Assembly: GCA_937891465.1 (NCBI GenBank) | Contig: CALAHF010000090.1 | Coordinates: 1-58,834, forward strand | DNA length: 58,834 nt | Origin: an uncultured Verrucomicrobiales bacterium | GTDB lineage: Bacteria > Verrucomicrobiota > Verrucomicrobiia > Verrucomicrobiales > DEV007 | Direction of reading: 5' to 3' | In this document: positions 48,455 through 58,095 of the stretch, piece after piece | Numbering within the stretch: the stretch's first letter is position 1 | Layout of the letters: each line of letters opens with the position of its first letter | Program-made: the position numbers and the translations under genes | The notes under the pieces: generated by a model | Told to the model about the DNA's origin: nothing | Databases searched by the model: none | The model's input: only the letters and a program-made list of their open reading frames with translations

Positions 48455-49354
48455 ATGGACGGCGAGATTACAGAAAGCACACCCGAAACTGTTTTGCGGG
48501 TCGAAGGACTGCAGCGGTCTTTCGGGAAATTCATGGCCGTCGATGGGCTCGATTTGAGTGTGAATCAGGGCGAAATTTATGGGTTTCTCGGCGTGAACGG
48601 TGCGGGCAAGACCACCACAATTCGCATGCTGATGGGAATCATCGCGCCAAGCGGCGGCAGCATCGAATTGCTCGGGGAAAAGACGAGGCGCACGTCGCTG
48701 ATGCAAAAACGGAAGATTGGTTACGTTTCTCAGGAACAAGTTTTTTACCCGTGGATGACAGCAACGATGCTCGGGAAATTTGTTGGAGGGCTTTATCCGA
48801 CGTGGGATGCGGATGAATTTAACCGTCTTCTAAATGTGCTCGAAGTCCCCGCGCATCGCAAGGTGTCCGGTCTATCCGGCGGGATGAAAGTGAAGCTAGC
48901 GTTAGCCTTGGCCGTTGCTCCGCGACCTTCGATTTTGATTTTGGATGAACCGACCGCGGGGCTTGATCCCGTGGCGCGGCGTGAGTTCCTCGACATCATC
49001 ACTTATCAGGCTCGGGAATACGGTCGGACGACATTTTTCTCGACTCACCTGCTGGATGAAGTGGAACGGGCAGCCGATCGCGTCGGAATTATCCACAAGG
49101 GCAAAATGCGATTTGAAGGTGAATTGACCGTGCTACAAGATCGAGTTCGGTTAGTCGAAATCGATCCCGATGGAGCCGTGCCGGAAGAATTTCAGATCTG
49201 GCGATTGTTGGATGAGCCGAAGACGCCGGGGAAAGTGGCGTTTGTCGTCGAGGCCGATTCGGAAGCTTGGCGGGTATCCGATTTGCCGAACGAACCGCTT
49301 TCGTTGGAAGACATTTTCATCGCCTGTGTGGGGATGGCTACGACCCGGATTTGA
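48455..49354 (+). CDS. ABC transporter ATP-binding subunit
   Basis: 299 residues from ATG 48455; the open frame extends upstream but those residues do not fit the family. It has Walker A GVNGAGKTTTIRML, Q-loop YVSQEQVFYP, signature VSGLSGGMKVKLALALAVAP and Walker B ILILDEPTAGLDP. The CcmA/NatA/YhaQ type is expected to pair with ABC-2 permeases. It drives the two downstream permease-peptidase proteins, separated from the first by only 7 bases, so one operon. Confidence 0.93.
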   Translation: MDGEITESTPETVLRVEGLQRSFGKFMAVDGLDLSVNQGEIYGFLGVNGAGKTTTIRMLMGIIAPSGGSIELLGEKTRRTSLMQKRKIGYVSQEQVFYPWMTATMLGKFVGGLYPTWDADEFNRLLNVLEVPAHRKVSGLSGGMKVKLALALAVAPRPSILILDEPTAGLDPVARREFLDIITYQAREYGRTTFFSTHLLDEVERAADRVGIIHKGKMRFEGELTVLQDRVRLVEIDPDGAVPEEFQIWRLLDEPKTPGKVAFVVEADSEAWRVSDLPNEPLSLEDIFIACVGMATTRI

Positions 49355-49361
49355 TGTTGCG

Positions 49362-50927
49362 ATGACGGGAATGCTTTTCAAAAAAGAGTGCCGCCAGCAC
49401 GGGATCTGGTTCATTTTGCTGGCGGTGACCACGCCACTGCTGCTCCGATTTGTTTCGGCCGCAGTAAATGCGAGCGGCGGAGGTGGCGGAGTCATGGCGG
49501 GCCTCGGAACGGGATTCCGCGTTGTCCTGCCGATCATGATTTGGATCCTCGCGTTCCTTCTCATCGCGGTAGAATTTCGTCAGAAGACCCAGCTGTTTCT
49601 CGAAGGATTGCCGCTGCCACGCTGGCGAATGATTGCCGTGAAATGCGGGCTGGGGATTGTGCTTTCGATTATCTATGCCGCCGGAAGTGTTCTGTTTTGT
49701 TGGATTACCTCGGGCGGAACGGAGGCGGTGACGATGCAATTTTTACAGATCATGTTGGCGACGGCAGCAGCGTGGTCCGCATTTTTGTGCAGCTTTTTTA
49801 TCGTGGCGGGATTTCTTGGTCGTTATCGCCTTGCGGTTTGTTTTGTGATTTTCATTGTCATGATCAGCCTCGCAAACAGAGGTGTTCCAATGGGGGAGTT
49901 TCCGCCGTTTGCCCTGCTCGAGCGTTTTGGATTGGAGCGTGAGATTTGGCCCAAAACTGATCTCGTGTGGACATGGGCCATCACAGCAGGATTGCTGGGG
50001 CTGAGTTTCACGATGGGCCTGACAAAAGAGGGATCGGTTGCTGCGATGATGGGTGAAAAGATGTCTTATCGAGAAAAAATCACGATTGGTGGCGCGTTGT
50101 TTTTGTTCATGACTTTCATGGGGAATTTCACCAGTCCCGCGCCCGAACCGTTTGAATTGCCGGGGGCTGTGGCCGAGGAAATTGATGGTGTTCAGCTGTT
50201 TTTGTCTCCTGAAAACGTGGCGCGGGCAGTGGATCAGGACGTTGCGTTTGCCTCAAAACTCGCCGCGAAAGTTGGTGGCATTCGCGATTGGTTGGCGATT
50301 TCAGATACGCATTTCCCTCCGATTTATATCGTGGAACGAACGGATTTAGAAGATGGTGAAGTGATCGGCGAAGATGTGGATGTCGAGGCGGGCCGAGTGG
50401 TTTTAGCATTCGCAAATTACCTCGATGACTCGGTCTCGTTGGATAGCGTTGCTTCCAAAATCATGCTCGAAGTGCTGCACGTCCGTTCGATCGACCGGAT
50501 TAAAAAAGAAGATCGGTGGTGGATTGCGATGGGGCTTCAGCAGTGGTTGGAGTTTAAAAATGCGTCGTCTGAGGAGCTTGCTGAGCAGGAAAAACGAGTT
50601 GGGGAGATTGTTAGCGAACACGGCTTTTCCCCGGAAAACGTGACGGATTGGAAAGCCTTCGAGGAACTGGTTGGCGAGGATGAAGTGCCAGCTATTGCAT
50701 GGACGGGCGTGCTGAAATTCGTCGATGAGTACGGCGAAGAGGCATTGCAAAACCTGGCCCAAAATACGGTGGCTCGATACGCTGCGGGGAAAGATAATCG
50801 CGCTTCGATTTACGATTTCTTTCATCCCATTTCGAAGGCATTTCGAAAAGCTACAGGCGGCGATACGGTGGCTGATTTTTCTGAAAAATGGGCCGCAAAT
50901 ATAGAAGGGAGTGCTCAAACCAAATGA
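49362..50927 (+). CDS. ABC-2 permease fused to an inactive gluzincin-like domain
   Basis: 521 residues from ATG 49362 (the open frame is longer, but its earlier part overlaps the ATPase gene). Residues about 12-255 hold some seven hydrophobic helices with a cytosolic coupling segment, EFRQKTQLFLEGLPLPRWRM. The remaining part, exposed outside, resembles a peptidase-MA-type fold. The motif that is HExxH in the next gene reads L-E-V-L-H (residues 369-373), and the later glutamate is replaced (RWWIAMGLQQW against RWFHEGLASY). It is thus a probable non-catalytic partner. The stop overlaps the next start (ATGA). Confidence 0.8.
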   Translation: MTGMLFKKECRQHGIWFILLAVTTPLLLRFVSAAVNASGGGGGVMAGLGTGFRVVLPIMIWILAFLLIAVEFRQKTQLFLEGLPLPRWRMIAVKCGLGIVLSIIYAAGSVLFCWITSGGTEAVTMQFLQIMLATAAAWSAFLCSFFIVAGFLGRYRLAVCFVIFIVMISLANRGVPMGEFPPFALLERFGLEREIWPKTDLVWTWAITAGLLGLSFTMGLTKEGSVAAMMGEKMSYREKITIGGALFLFMTFMGNFTSPAPEPFELPGAVAEEIDGVQLFLSPENVARAVDQDVAFASKLAAKVGGIRDWLAISDTHFPPIYIVERTDLEDGEVIGEDVDVEAGRVVLAFANYLDDSVSLDSVASKIMLEVLHVRSIDRIKKEDRWWIAMGLQQWLEFKNASSEELAEQEKRVGEIVSEHGFSPENVTDWKAFEELVGEDEVPAIAWTGVLKFVDEYGEEALQNLAQNTVARYAAGKDNRASIYDFFHPISKAFRKATGGDTVADFSEKWAANIEGSAQTK

Positions 50928-52897
50928 CGCCTGCATTTCGAGCCCTCATAGATAAAGAATGGCGGGGACTGCGACCGATCGCAGTTCTCATCGCCGTGTT
51001 GTTTATCTTTGGCCTGTTTTACGCGCAGGCTTCTGATTTTCTCGATCAATACACGTTGTGGGAGGACTATTTCGACAACTTGGAAACCTCAACGGTGATG
51101 AACTTCATCTTCTGCGCTATCATTTCGCTCGGGCTTCTCGTTCGCGAAAAAGATGAAGGTACCCTGATGTATCTCGATGGATTGCCAGTTCGCCGGAGTT
51201 CGATTTATCTCGCAAAATGGCTCGTGGCTGTATTCCTCGGGGGAATCATCGACGTGATGTTTTTTGTCGAATGTTTCATCTACGACGCGTTTTCGCGCGA
51301 GAGCGATATGCCCGGGCGACAGTGGCATTCCTATGGGGTTTATCTCGGCCTGCATATTTTTCAGACGATGTTTTTCGTATCGCTGATGTTCTGTTTGTCG
51401 TTTCTGAGGCGTTGGGCATTTCTTATTATTGGAGCGCTTTTCTGGGCGGTTTTTTGGATGAAATCAAGCCAGGTGCCGTTTGCGGAGTGGCTGGATCCAT
51501 TCAGTCTCGTTCAAGTTCCGGAGAAAGAGGACGAACGCTGGATCATTCCCTGGGGGCACCTTGGTTTTCTGGGAGCTGTGGGTTTAGGGTTTTGGCTGGT
51601 TGGATTATTCACATTCACGGTTCGATTCGATTCCATTCGTCAGGCGAGGGGATCATGTCTCGCCAAGGGAGCTGGTGTGCTGGCCATTTTTCTTATCGTC
51701 ATTGTGTGGATGGGATTCATGATCACCAGCGCCGTCATGCAGGAGGATGAATTAATCGAAGAAGCGGCAGCAGCAGCTGAGGAAACATATACTGAGAAAT
51801 TCACGCCCCAGCTCAGTGGCGGCAATGCGATTGCGACAGAATCGAGCGAGAAATTTCAATTTATTTTCCGAGAGAAATCGCGCAAACAGGTCCAGCCGCT
51901 AGTGGATAAAAGCGATGCGACTTTTGCGACCGTTGCCGATTTTTTAAAGGTCGACCAAGACGCTCGTGACGGCCGAATCGTGGTCGATTTATCGAATCCG
52001 TTGGGTGATCACAATGCAGGGCGGGCGCATTGGCAGAAGATCCGAATGGTTCCACCGGGTCCCAAACAGCCCGTTGCGAAGGGCGTTGCGGTGCTCGGTC
52101 ATGAAATCACTCACGTTCTTATCGATCAGATTACCGACAATCGTCTGACCGAGGATTTTGGTTCCGTGAGGTGGTTTCACGAGGGACTTGCCAGCTACGT
52201 TGAGTTCCGATTTTTTGAAAAACCCGAGGCGCGCGCCGATTACGAACATTGGATCGCGCTGGCTTCGACGTGGGATGAAATCGATTTTGCAGAGGTGGTG
52301 GACAACACGGAATTCACCGAGCTGCACGACAGCTTTCTGGTCTATCCGATCGGGCGGTTGTGGGTGAAGGCTGCCGTTAATGTCTACGGCGATGACGCGC
52401 CCACGAAGTTGCTAACTGCGTTTGCGAGACCGGACGCTCCGCGAAACCTTGATGGGTTGGCCCGTTGGCGCGATGTTTGTCTGGCTGCGGATTTTGATTT
52501 GGAACGGATTCGATCCCGATTTCGCACGCGATTGAAGGAGCTTCGCGACACTCACGCCGAGGTTTGCGAAAAGTATACTGAGATCACGGAGGCCTCAGCC
52601 ATTCGCGACGATGGAAAAATTGTGATCTCACCTGAGCTACCTGAAAATTGGGACGAAGTCGTAAAAAACCTGCCCGAGAAATCAAAACTCATGTGTCGCG
52701 TTCGTCCTGAAACCGATTCAGAACCCGCTCAATGGCGTTATGCGAAGCTGAACAAAAAGAACGAGTTTCGACTGTCCGGATTCGATTTTCTGAAACCACA
52801 AATCGGCGTCCAGATCGGCTGGGAAACCGGCGGTTGGACAGAAATGCCGGTTCTCGGAGAGTGGATCACCGTAACGGTAGAGGCAGAGAAACAGTAA
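50924..52897 (+). CDS. ABC-2 permease fused to a zinc-metallopeptidase-like domain
   Basis: 657 residues from ATG 50924. Residues about 10-275 carry seven hydrophobic helices and the same coupling segment (REKDEGTLMYLDGLPVRRSS). From about 285 a large outer domain follows, with GHEITHVLIDQI (HEITH at 393-397) and RWFHEGLASYVEF, whose Glu420 would be the third zinc ligand. This HExxH plus downstream Glu arrangement is that of gluzincins of the peptidase-MA type. It should be an exported metallopeptidase tied to an ABC exporter; the cargo is unknown. A C-terminal beta-rich part follows the helical domain. Co-translated with the preceding gene. Confidence 0.85.
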   Translation: MTPAFRALIDKEWRGLRPIAVLIAVLFIFGLFYAQASDFLDQYTLWEDYFDNLETSTVMNFIFCAIISLGLLVREKDEGTLMYLDGLPVRRSSIYLAKWLVAVFLGGIIDVMFFVECFIYDAFSRESDMPGRQWHSYGVYLGLHIFQTMFFVSLMFCLSFLRRWAFLIIGALFWAVFWMKSSQVPFAEWLDPFSLVQVPEKEDERWIIPWGHLGFLGAVGLGFWLVGLFTFTVRFDSIRQARGSCLAKGAGVLAIFLIVIVWMGFMITSAVMQEDELIEEAAAAAEETYTEKFTPQLSGGNAIATESSEKFQFIFREKSRKQVQPLVDKSDATFATVADFLKVDQDARDGRIVVDLSNPLGDHNAGRAHWQKIRMVPPGPKQPVAKGVAVLGHEITHVLIDQITDNRLTEDFGSVRWFHEGLASYVEFRFFEKPEARADYEHWIALASTWDEIDFAEVVDNTEFTELHDSFLVYPIGRLWVKAAVNVYGDDAPTKLLTAFARPDAPRNLDGLARWRDVCLAADFDLERIRSRFRTRLKELRDTHAEVCEKYTEITEASAIRDDGKIVISPELPENWDEVVKNLPEKSKLMCRVRPETDSEPAQWRYAKLNKKNEFRLSGFDFLKPQIGVQIGWETGGWTEMPVLGEWITVTVEAEKQ

Positions 52898-54639: not shown

Positions 54640-57600
54640 TTACTTGTGACCGCCTTCTTTCTTCGTTTTTTTCTGGGCAGCGAGATAGGCCACCACATCA
54701 CGAACTTCGCTTTTTGTCATCATGTAGCCAACGGGAGGCATGGCTGAAATGGGTGGCGTTCGGCTGGCGATTTCAGACTTCTTGTAATCGACTTCTTCGG
54801 TCTTGTTGCTGTCTTTAGGATCCGGAATTTTCAGGGTCACGGTGGTGTCGTCTTCTTTCAAAAACGCACCGCCGACAGACGTTCCATCTTTCAGCGACAT
54901 CATCGTCATGCCGTATCCCGGCACGACAAATCCACTGGGATTCACGATCGATTCCAAAATGTATTTTGCATCATGCCGTTTGCCGATATCCGAGAGATCA
55001 GGTCCGGCAACGCCCCCGGTTCCATTGAGATTGTGGCATTTCGCGCATTGTCCGGCTGCGTGGGTCAGGAAAACGGTCGCGCCTTTTTCCTTGTCGCCGC
55101 CGTGAAGGGCAACATTAAAGGCTGCGAGGGGATCATCGCCTAAACCAGTGGTGTAGGCTGCCAGTGCGACTCTGACGGGTTCTTCGGAGCGAGCTTCCGC
55201 AGCTTCGATGAGATCCAGTTTCGCGCCGGATTTCTCCTTTCCAATATTGTTGAGCCGTTCAGCAATGAATTCGGCAGCTTTTGGGTTTTCTGCAGTCGCG
55301 AGAATTTCAAAGGCGGACTGGCGATCAAGAACATCATCGGAGTCAGCTAATTTAAGGGTCGCGGCATAGCCTTCATCCGGTTTCACTCCGAGAAGAGCAG
55401 CAGCGGCAGCGGCGCGAATCGCTTGTTTTTTATTCACCAAAAGTCCAGCCCACAATGGCTCGAGAGCTTCGGGTTTTTGATTCGCCAATCCCCGCAATGC
55501 GCCGATGCGAGCTTCGTCTTCGCCTTTTGCGTTGTTCAGTTGGGCGACGAGCAGTTCGGCGGGCGCTTCAGCTCCAAATTTAAGGGCGACGCGAGTGGCG
55601 CCGGCAATGAGATTTCCTTCGACGGTGTCGAAAACCTTGCTGAGATTTGCTTTCACGACGTCGGAAATATCGGCGCGTTTTGCAGGATCAAGTGGGCGAT
55701 GGAATCCCACGGTGGGGTCAAACGGCGTTGGCTCAGCCCATTCTTCGAGAGCGGCGAGGGCTTCGGCGCGAAGCAATTCGGGGAGTTCCTTGCGGGCAGC
55801 ATAATTGACGAGTCGCTCGGCGCATTCGGCCGTTCCCACGCGGAAATTGGCGTTGATCAAACGACGATGAATCATCCAATCGTGCTGGTTTTCGTGCGCC
55901 GTTGGCTTCTCGATTTGCGCGGCGAGTGCCGGACCAGCGGTTGGCAAATCAAGATCATTGATCGCGCGAATCGCCTCGTAGCGGACCGTTTGATCAGCGT
56001 CATCGAGAAAATACTTCACCCGAGGGTCTTCGAGTTTGCGAAGCGTCAACAAAACGCCAAGACGTAGTGCCTGGGATTCGTGATCAACGAGTTTGAGAAT
56101 TTTTTCCCGCTCGTTCAAAAACCACATTCCCTGAACGCAGGCGTGGCGGAGAAAGACGTCTTCGTTGTTGTTCGCGATGAGGATTTCCTGCAATTTTGGA
56201 AGCGCCGAAATGATCCGGCATTTGCCAACACCGATCGCAGCGAATGCTTTTACACGAGCCGATTCGTCATCGAGTGCCGCGACGAGGGCTCCGCCAGCTT
56301 TGGTCGTGCGGGAATCGGCGAGTGTTTTGGCCGCTTGGGCACGGACTTCAGGATGAGGGTCGGACAGGACAGGAATGAGAATATCCAAGAGTGATTCGTC
56401 CTTTCGAGCCAACTGTCCGATCCCCCAAATTCCGTGGAGGCGACGCAAAAATTTGCCTTCAAATTCACCGCTGCCTGGATGCATAAATCCTTCAGCAAAA
56501 TCGTTGGTGGCAAATATTTTGAGCAAATCAACTTCGCCACGTCTAACAAGTTCGAATTGAGCCTTCTGGCGAACTCGATAATCGGGGTAACTCACCAAAG
56601 CAAAAACACGGCCTAGTTTCATTTTTGAAAAATCACTGACGAGAACTTTTTGAATTTCTTTATGAAGCGGATTGCGATTATTTTCGCTGGAATACAACGC
56701 ATATACATTCCCTAGATCCTGCTTATACCAGCCGTTGTTGTTGAAACACGCTAGATACATTCGGCCGTCGGGACCAAATTCCACATCGGTGTTACCGAGG
56801 CCTTCCATGAAAATCTCGTGATGATCAAGCGCGAAACCGGCGCCTTTTTCTTTCACTGAAAAGGCTTCGAGATCGCCTTTGGCCCCGCCAAAATTGCACA
56901 CCCAAAAGTGGTTGGCGTAACGATCTGGCATTGCCGTTGCGCCATAATTGTAAACCAATCCGCTCGGGCCCCACGAAACGAGATCGACTGCGGGCAAGGC
57001 GTATTCGGGACGGTTGTCGGCAAAAGGCTCCCAAATTTGCTCGGTCATCCACGGATTCATCGGCATTTTCTTTTTGCCGTGCTCGAGATCTGGCGTCCGC
57101 AGATCGAAATTCTCACGGAAATTGATGAGCAGCTGGTGGCCGGAATTCCAGCCGGATTCGCCACCTTCGATGATGTAAACGAGCCGCCCTTTGTCGCCCG
57201 CATCGCAGTTGTTATCGCAGGTGAACAGGTTGCCGTATTTGTCGAAAGCCAGCTCCTGCGGGTTGCGGAGTCCTCGATAGATTTCCTCGACGTTTGAGCC
57301 ATCGGGATCGCAGCGGAAAACGCCACCTTCCATCGGGCGATGAAAGTGACGGCCTTCTTTCGTTGTGATTGATGATCCTCGATCGCCTATCGACCAGTAA
57401 ATTTTGCCGTCAGGTCCGACAATTGCGCCGTGCATGTCGTGTCCTGAATAGCTCATCCGCACGCCAAAACCGTCCTGAATCGACTCCTTTTTCTCAGCCG
57501 CGCCATCGCCATCCGCATCGGTCAGTTTCCAAAGGTGGGGAATATTCGTGTAGTAAATCGAGTCGTTCAAAAACGCCAAACCGATTCCCGGACCGTCGAG

Positions 57601-58095
57601 CACGTCGTTGAATCCGTCGGCAAAAATCGAAGTGGTATCAGCTCTTCCGTCGTTGTTGGTATCGTCGACGACGATGATCCGGTCCTCGTATTCTGTGTAA
57701 AAATCGATCGGTCGTTTCGCGTCGTTTTGATACATCGCGAGGCGTTCCTCGTTGGTTTCGATCGAGAAATCCTGAAACAAAATCTGCTGTTCGTTTCGGA
57801 TATCCTGTACCCCGGCACGCCAGCGATGAATCTCCGCGATATACATCCGGCCTTTATTGTCAAAAGTCAGCGCACATGGATTTTGGGTCTGTTTTGAATC
57901 CACGAACAGCGACGCAATCACATCACCCGGCAATTTGAAACCCGCGATTCGAAGCTGGGCCTCCTTTTCGAGCTCCTTCGTAGATTGAGTCGGCGGGGTT
58001 GCTGCTTTGGGGCCTTTGGTTTCGGCATCTTGCGAAAGCAAAGGACCCGACGCCATTAACGCGGCAATGAAAAGACTTGAGGCGAATTTTTTCAT
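54640..58095 (-). CDS. PVC-type dehydrogenase-domain, HEAT-repeat, cytochrome c protein
   Basis: 1151 residues, intact. A signal peptide starts it. Residues about 60-480 form the 'membrane-bound dehydrogenase' beta-propeller of PVC bacteria (ALTFDNKGRMYIAEIHRW, VGPDGKIYWSIGDRGSS, NPQELAFDKYGNLFTCDNNC). Then come helical HEAT-like repeats (VLSDPHPEVRAQAAKTLADS). Near the C-terminus is a class I cytochrome c domain with QCAKCHNLNGTGG (CxxCH haem) and an axial Met in the final part (SAMPPVGYMMTK). It should pass electrons from an unidentified substrate in the periplasm. No obvious operon partner. Confidence 0.93.
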   Translation of the reverse strand: MKKFASSLFIAALMASGPLLSQDAETKGPKAATPPTQSTKELEKEAQLRIAGFKLPGDVIASLFVDSKQTQNPCALTFDNKGRMYIAEIHRWRAGVQDIRNEQQILFQDFSIETNEERLAMYQNDAKRPIDFYTEYEDRIIVVDDTNNDGRADTTSIFADGFNDVLDGPGIGLAFLNDSIYYTNIPHLWKLTDADGDGAAEKKESIQDGFGVRMSYSGHDMHGAIVGPDGKIYWSIGDRGSSITTKEGRHFHRPMEGGVFRCDPDGSNVEEIYRGLRNPQELAFDKYGNLFTCDNNCDAGDKGRLVYIIEGGESGWNSGHQLLINFRENFDLRTPDLEHGKKKMPMNPWMTEQIWEPFADNRPEYALPAVDLVSWGPSGLVYNYGATAMPDRYANHFWVCNFGGAKGDLEAFSVKEKGAGFALDHHEIFMEGLGNTDVEFGPDGRMYLACFNNNGWYKQDLGNVYALYSSENNRNPLHKEIQKVLVSDFSKMKLGRVFALVSYPDYRVRQKAQFELVRRGEVDLLKIFATNDFAEGFMHPGSGEFEGKFLRRLHGIWGIGQLARKDESLLDILIPVLSDPHPEVRAQAAKTLADSRTTKAGGALVAALDDESARVKAFAAIGVGKCRIISALPKLQEILIANNNEDVFLRHACVQGMWFLNEREKILKLVDHESQALRLGVLLTLRKLEDPRVKYFLDDADQTVRYEAIRAINDLDLPTAGPALAAQIEKPTAHENQHDWMIHRRLINANFRVGTAECAERLVNYAARKELPELLRAEALAALEEWAEPTPFDPTVGFHRPLDPAKRADISDVVKANLSKVFDTVEGNLIAGATRVALKFGAEAPAELLVAQLNNAKGEDEARIGALRGLANQKPEALEPLWAGLLVNKKQAIRAAAAAALLGVKPDEGYAATLKLADSDDVLDRQSAFEILATAENPKAAEFIAERLNNIGKEKSGAKLDLIEAAEARSEEPVRVALAAYTTGLGDDPLAAFNVALHGGDKEKGATVFLTHAAGQCAKCHNLNGTGGVAGPDLSDIGKRHDAKYILESIVNPSGFVVPGYGMTMMSLKDGTSVGGAFLKEDDTTVTLKIPDPKDSNKTEEVDYKKSEIASRTPPISAMPPVGYMMTKSEVRDVVAYLAAQKKTKKEGGHK

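Follow-up and report, generated by a model that had tools for sequence, protein, structure and literature searches.

A three-gene ABC-2 operon with a predicted zinc peptidase on one permease and a predicted pseudo-peptidase on the other

A three-gene locus in the DNA of an uncultured Verrucomicrobiales bacterium raises the question of what a pair of ABC permeases might do with a large peptidase-like domain at the end of each. The preliminary description of this 58,834-nucleotide stretch (contig CALAHF010000090.1; the whole stretch is referred to here as the window) had reported an ATPase gene followed by two permease genes, with a 7-base gap and a 4-base overlap at the junctions, and re-reading of the coordinates and open reading frames (ORFs) agreed with it on all of these points. 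The features are as follows.

48455..49354, plus strand: ABC ATPase, 299 aa; ABC_tran, 1e-28
49355..49361, plus strand: gap of 7 bases from the ATPase stop to the permease 1 start
49362..50927, plus strand: permease 1, 521 aa; ABC-2 part at about residues 1-258 with seven helices, then a predicted outer pseudo-peptidase domain
50148..50924, plus strand: outer domain of permease 1, residues 263-521; predicted M1 catalytic-domain fold without zinc ligands
50508..50534, plus strand: motif E383-[DE]-[RK]-x-W387...G391, specific to permease 1; occupies the site of the permease 2 HEG(420)
50924..52897, plus strand: permease 2, 657 aa; ABC-2 part at about residues 1-270 with seven helices, predicted outer zinc-peptidase domain, C-terminal beta domain
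51824..52567, plus strand: predicted outer M1-like peptidase domain of permease 2, residues 301-548; IRAP/ERAP2, E 2e-6 to 1e-5
52100..52114, plus strand: HEITH, predicted zinc-binding motif, residues 393-397; invariant as HExxH
52181..52183, plus strand: Glu420, presumed third zinc ligand; HExxH-x22-E, invariant
52343..52345, plus strand: Tyr474 of YPxG; aligns with the catalytic Tyr of M1 YxKG; invariant
52586..52894, plus strand: C-terminal beta-rich domain of permease 2, residues 555-657, from the predicted model

The two permease genes overlap by 4 bases (ATGA, 50924-50927), and the junction between the ATPase and permease 1, a 7-base gap in the window, is a 4-base overlap in most relatives. 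The long flanking ORFs lie on the other strand (by eye, the upstream one encodes an ABC-F-like double ATPase and the downstream one a lipoprotein-like product with MORN-like repeats), which indicates that the three genes form an isolated unit. One copy of the operon is present in the window genome, and no paralogues of its proteins were found there by sequence. The window also contains, at 54640-58095 on the minus strand, an ORF for a secreted protein of 1151 aa; by eye, it resembles the planctomycete/verrucomicrobial membrane-bound dehydrogenases and has HEAT-like repeats and, at the C-terminus, a haem-binding CxxCH.

The proposed ABC-2 exporter architecture was supported for both permeases by Pfam ABC2_membrane_4 matches above cut-off and by a NosY-type fold in the predicted models. 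Residues 1-235 of permease 2 matched NosY at Z 17.2 (219 aligned, 3.6 A; VIA-align re-ranking), and the transmembrane part of permease 1 did so at Z 16.8 (220 aligned, 3.6 A); besides, the two transmembrane parts are homologous to each other (E 1.1e-23 in profile comparison). In the ATPase, Walker A, the Q-loop (SQEQxFYPWMT), the LSGG signature, Walker B, and the H-loop are all intact, and the Walker A Lys and Walker B Asp-Glu were kept in all 24 ATPase rows covering them. The ATPase motifs and the permease fold are shared with ABC-2 exporters such as NosFY, PmtCD, and the ABCG family (Z 13.7 between permease 2 and PmtCD), whereas each window permease has an additional, seventh helix and a large outer domain of peptidase fold, and the two halves are divergent paralogues.

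Hydropathy at a relaxed threshold gave seven helices in each permease, which would place the C-terminal domain outside on the premise that the N-terminus is inside, as is the loop that joins helices 2 and 3. Loop charge across all relatives mostly agrees with this N-inside/C-outside arrangement, and in permease 2 a net positive charge is found at the N-terminus and in loop 6 and a net negative one in the outer loops, loop 2 being the exception. We infer from hydropathy and loop charge that the C-terminal domains of both permeases lie outside, as had been suggested.

The outer domain of permease 2 is apparently a zinc peptidase. The HEITH motif and downstream Glu420 noted in the preliminary description are present, and H393, E394, H397, E420, Y474, and G477 were invariant in 27 of 27 aligned permease 2 relatives, with the HExxH-x22-E spacing constant in all members in which it was readable. 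Against a mean column identity of 46% in alignment A2, this invariance is not a product of chance. The conservation indicates selection on the site but does not tell which reaction takes place there.

Structure prediction bore out the metallopeptidase fold that had been assumed for this domain. The AlphaFold2 model of permease 2, made from ten sequences (mean pLDDT 79.9), gave the C-terminal domain the fold of an M1 catalytic domain; pLDDT falls below 50 in the linker at residues 268-299, and the orientation of the domain relative to the pore is uncertain at a pTM of 0.54. In Foldseek, the modeled domain matched IRAP and ERAP2 (E down to 2.2e-6), and re-ranking with VIA-align placed LTA4H, IRAP, ERAP2, and APN at Z of about 14 over 212-241 residues. 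A permease 2 profile compared with 32 M1 domains (E 1.4e-5) brought the two HExxH motifs into register, with Glu420 opposite the M1 Glu and Tyr474 opposite the Tyr of YxKG. Among solved structures, the single sequence of permease 2 found no sequence match, and its profile matched aminopeptidases weakly (E 0.008).

In the comparison with peptidase MA and M1 that had been proposed, both Pfam models remained below their gathering scores, with 12.2 bits against 27.7 for M1 (PF01433) and, for the window protein, 18.7 bits against 32.4 for Peptidase_MA_2 (PF13485). The latter is the nearest Pfam peptidase model, has the pattern HExxH...EGLA...Y in common with permease 2, and was matched by 3 of 10 relatives at E up to 0.1 (best 9.3e-5). 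With the M1 aminopeptidases (LTA4H, ERAP1/2, APN, and IRAP), permease 2 shares the catalytic-domain fold, HExxH, the later Glu, and the Tyr of YxxG, whereas it differs from them in its x22 instead of x18 spacing, its score below the Pfam M1 cut-off, its fusion to an ABC permease, and its lack of GxMEN. This last motif was absent from the stretches before HExxH in the permease 2 relatives, most of which are AGTAYW-like, making aminopeptidase activity in particular doubtful. By spacing, GxMEN, and score, the domain thus has a gluzincin fold and is a member of neither M1 nor Pfam Peptidase_MA_2.

Two other proteins were observed in this connection. The sole window-genome protein above the Peptidase_MA_2 cut-off is a large repeat protein (C164:81182-81589), TPR-like by eye and with HEFAH, which has no relation to the ABC operon. 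Genome G453, which carries the full three-gene operon, also encodes a free-standing protein related to the permease 2 outer domain but lacking an ABC permease (L063, 6378-8099, minus strand); by eye, this protein has an apparent signal sequence, a peptidase domain with HETAH...FHEGLA, a beta-like region, and Sel1-like repeats.

The claim that both permeases bear a gluzincin-like outer domain stood for fold and descent, but not for the zinc site, which permease 1 lacks. Profile comparison showed that the two outer domains are homologous (310 columns, E 1.1e-8, probability 95.7). The AlphaFold2 model of permease 1 (mean pLDDT 75.6), in which the domain orientation is likewise uncertain at a pTM of 0.51, matched IRAP, APN, and ERAP2 at Z 13.6-14.3 over 218-236 residues, with IRAP at Z 14.3 over 221, and its Foldseek matches were weak (E 2.6e-3 at best). 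None of 28 permease 1 relatives has Glu where permease 2 has Glu394; in place of Glu420 they carry D, C, S, V, or M, and in place of Tyr474 they carry L, I, V, M, or A, while E383 and G391 of the permease-1-specific motif were kept in 27 of the 28. Judged by these substitutions and the predicted fold, the permease 1 outer domain is probably a pseudo-peptidase that has lost its catalytic residues. LEVLH of permease 1 was considered as a degenerate HExxH in register with that of permease 2 and was rejected, as the profile alignment sets HEITH against S365-L369; in one relative (L055), permease 1 has HEELH, but away from the aligned zinc-site position. TAF2 of TFIID, which has an M1-like fold and is not known to have peptidase activity, is a precedent for a pseudo-M1 scaffold of this kind. 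Its structure (7edx_B) was matched by both permease models (Z 13.8 and 14.9), although TAF2 is a eukaryotic transcription factor and not part of a transporter.

Some variation was seen within the family. In a very divergent operon (L071, genome G456), permease 2 keeps HELVH...NEGLA, permease 1 is without E-[DE]-R-x-W, and both form long branches. The permease 1 proteins of the window clade (the window and L009-L012; 521-537 aa) are without the C-terminal extension found in permease 1 of the other relatives (587-638 aa).

The three-gene module occurs in at least three phyla, namely, Verrucomicrobiota, Planctomycetota, and Myxococcota. Among sampled genomes, a match was present in 6 of 35 from the family of the window genome, itself not counted, against 0 of 21 from the rest of the order, and 388 genomes sampled evenly across the phylum yielded no further match; outside the phylum, matches were found in 19 of 195 genomes of Myxococcota and 1 of 246 of Planctomycetota. 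Metagenome assemblies are among the sources of these relatives, which we count as a caveat. Verrucomicrobiales and Akkermansiaceae assemblies, one Pirellulaceae assembly, Archangium violaceum, and Citreicoccus inhibens were among the matches listed, and no relatives of the operon were found on plasmids. The order ATPase, permease 1, permease 2 was the same in every operon with a spanning contig, with overlaps mostly of 4 bases; in one genome (G436), the two permeases were found on separate contigs that do not show their junction. Conserved cargo, regulator, sensor, or defence genes beside the operon were not found between groups: the neighbour comparison, which used mechanical ORFs rather than a gene caller, returned one weak pair, LysR-like in look and at differing relative positions.

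In a tree of 50 permeases, made by a quick method and with the long L071 branches flagged, all permease 1 sequences fell on one side and all permease 2 sequences on the other of a single branch (SH-aLRT 100). Furthermore, the three genes are co-inherited: the pairwise distance matrices of the two permeases were correlated at a Mantel r of 0.98 (a value reached in 0 of 2,000 permutations), and the ATPase matrix correlated with that of either permease at r 0.94. The one-branch split and the co-variation of the permeases suggest one old duplication with catalysis lost in one copy; the simplest history would be a single duplication and a single loss of catalysis, before the lineages diverged or exchanged the operon. 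The catalytic/pseudo asymmetry of the pair is conserved across the three phyla.

How might such a pair work? The reading that we prefer, to which we give an even chance, is an ABC-2 complex whose outer face bears an active peptidase paired with a pseudo-peptidase, cleaving what passes through the complex or is extracted by it. One complex would presumably contain two copies of the ATPase and one of each permease, and each permease would project its M1-like domain into the periplasm from the seventh helix. The permease 2 domain would be the zinc peptidase and that of permease 1 its catalytically dead homologue, which probably pairs with the active domain and forms or regulates the substrate cleft. 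The substrate would most likely be a peptide or one end of an envelope protein; driven by ATP hydrolysis, it would pass through the inner membrane or be drawn out of it and reach the outer pair, which would cleave it. In a more specific and more tentative form, somewhat short of an even chance, the outer face might be a heterodimeric gluzincin of one catalytic and one dead subunit with a cleft opened and closed by ATP-driven motion of the permeases, that is, an ATP-powered periplasmic protease-exporter that arose by one ancient duplication before it spread through at least three phyla.

Transport may not be involved at all if the cycles of the ATPase, relayed through the permeases, serve to open and close the pair of outer peptidase domains, whose target would be a periplasmic or membrane-anchored protein that does not cross the pore. 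FtsEX, which drives peptidoglycan hydrolases, is a model for such mechanotransmission, and FtsEX and MacB are of type VII, with four helices per permease. The NosDFY complex is an energy-transducing rather than a classical transport system, and NosY is the top fold match of the transmembrane parts, a match that reflects a common fold. The great size of both outer domains and the lack of a conserved cargo gene near the operon also agree with mechanotransmission, and PMC7668044 and PMC11491553 describe mechanical work by ABC proteins. However, the window permeases are ABC-2 halves of conventional build, a fold that exporters commonly have, and we consider mechanical action without transport unlikely, although it is the main rival.

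It is less probable still that the system serves envelope defence or clean-up, pulling toxic amphipathic peptides, such as competitors' antimicrobial peptides, out of the inner membrane for destruction by the outer peptidase. The patchy distribution (6 of 35 genomes in the family, 19 of 195 in Myxococcota) would suit an accessory function of this kind, but no sensor, regulator, or defence gene is conserved in linkage. According to PMC12646458, YbbAP-TesA of E. coli is an ABC-hydrolase complex that takes hydrophobic compounds out of the inner membrane. This is a precedent in coupling an ABC complex to an envelope hydrolase, although YbbAP is a type VII permease and its hydrolase is a separate protein acting on lipids. 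We consider it very improbable that the outer domains are non-enzymatic, with a structural or metal-sensing zinc site and a pair serving as a docking platform only. The missing GxMEN and the x22 spacing, against x18 in M1, fit such a role, whereas the invariance of Glu394 (the general base) and the M1-type Tyr474 beside the ligands does not, as both are expected to serve catalysis rather than metal binding and would probably have been lost, as in permease 1, had the site drifted to a structural role.

The predicted architecture, an ABC exporter with a built-in peptidase, is shared with the PCAT exporters, in which a cytosolic N-terminal C39 cysteine peptidase processes the cargo. PCATs have a different ABC fold, the peptidase domain of the window system is C-terminal instead of N-terminal, and none of the three window proteins matched a C39 peptidase. 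By general description, proteins named "ABC transporter permease/M1 family aminopeptidase" in databases would be large single proteins and not a catalytic/pseudo pair, and would have in common with the operon an ABC-2 permease and an M1-type domain in one polypeptide. No ABC-2 permease was recognised on M1 proteins among the PF01433 frames inspected in Myxococcia or the plasmid M1 matches. In the open-access literature searched, we found no description of such a system and no paper with both ABC and M1-fusion terms; one hit, PMC7157781, was unrelated.

The new point is the conserved active/dead asymmetry of the permease pair. To our knowledge, the bacterial periplasm contains no ATP, so that an ATP-driven pump with a peptidase in each half would offer a direct means of driving proteolysis or the maturation of peptides in that compartment. 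The pairing also gives a clear hypothesis, with the pseudo-enzyme as clamp or regulator, and residues for mutation, and the myxobacterial relatives (Archangium and Citreicoccus) are cultivated sources of the genes. As a minor observation, the Q-loop stretch SQ[ED]QxFYPWM (window 48728-48760, residues 92-102) is near-invariant in the ATPase family and may be a marker for locating the operon.
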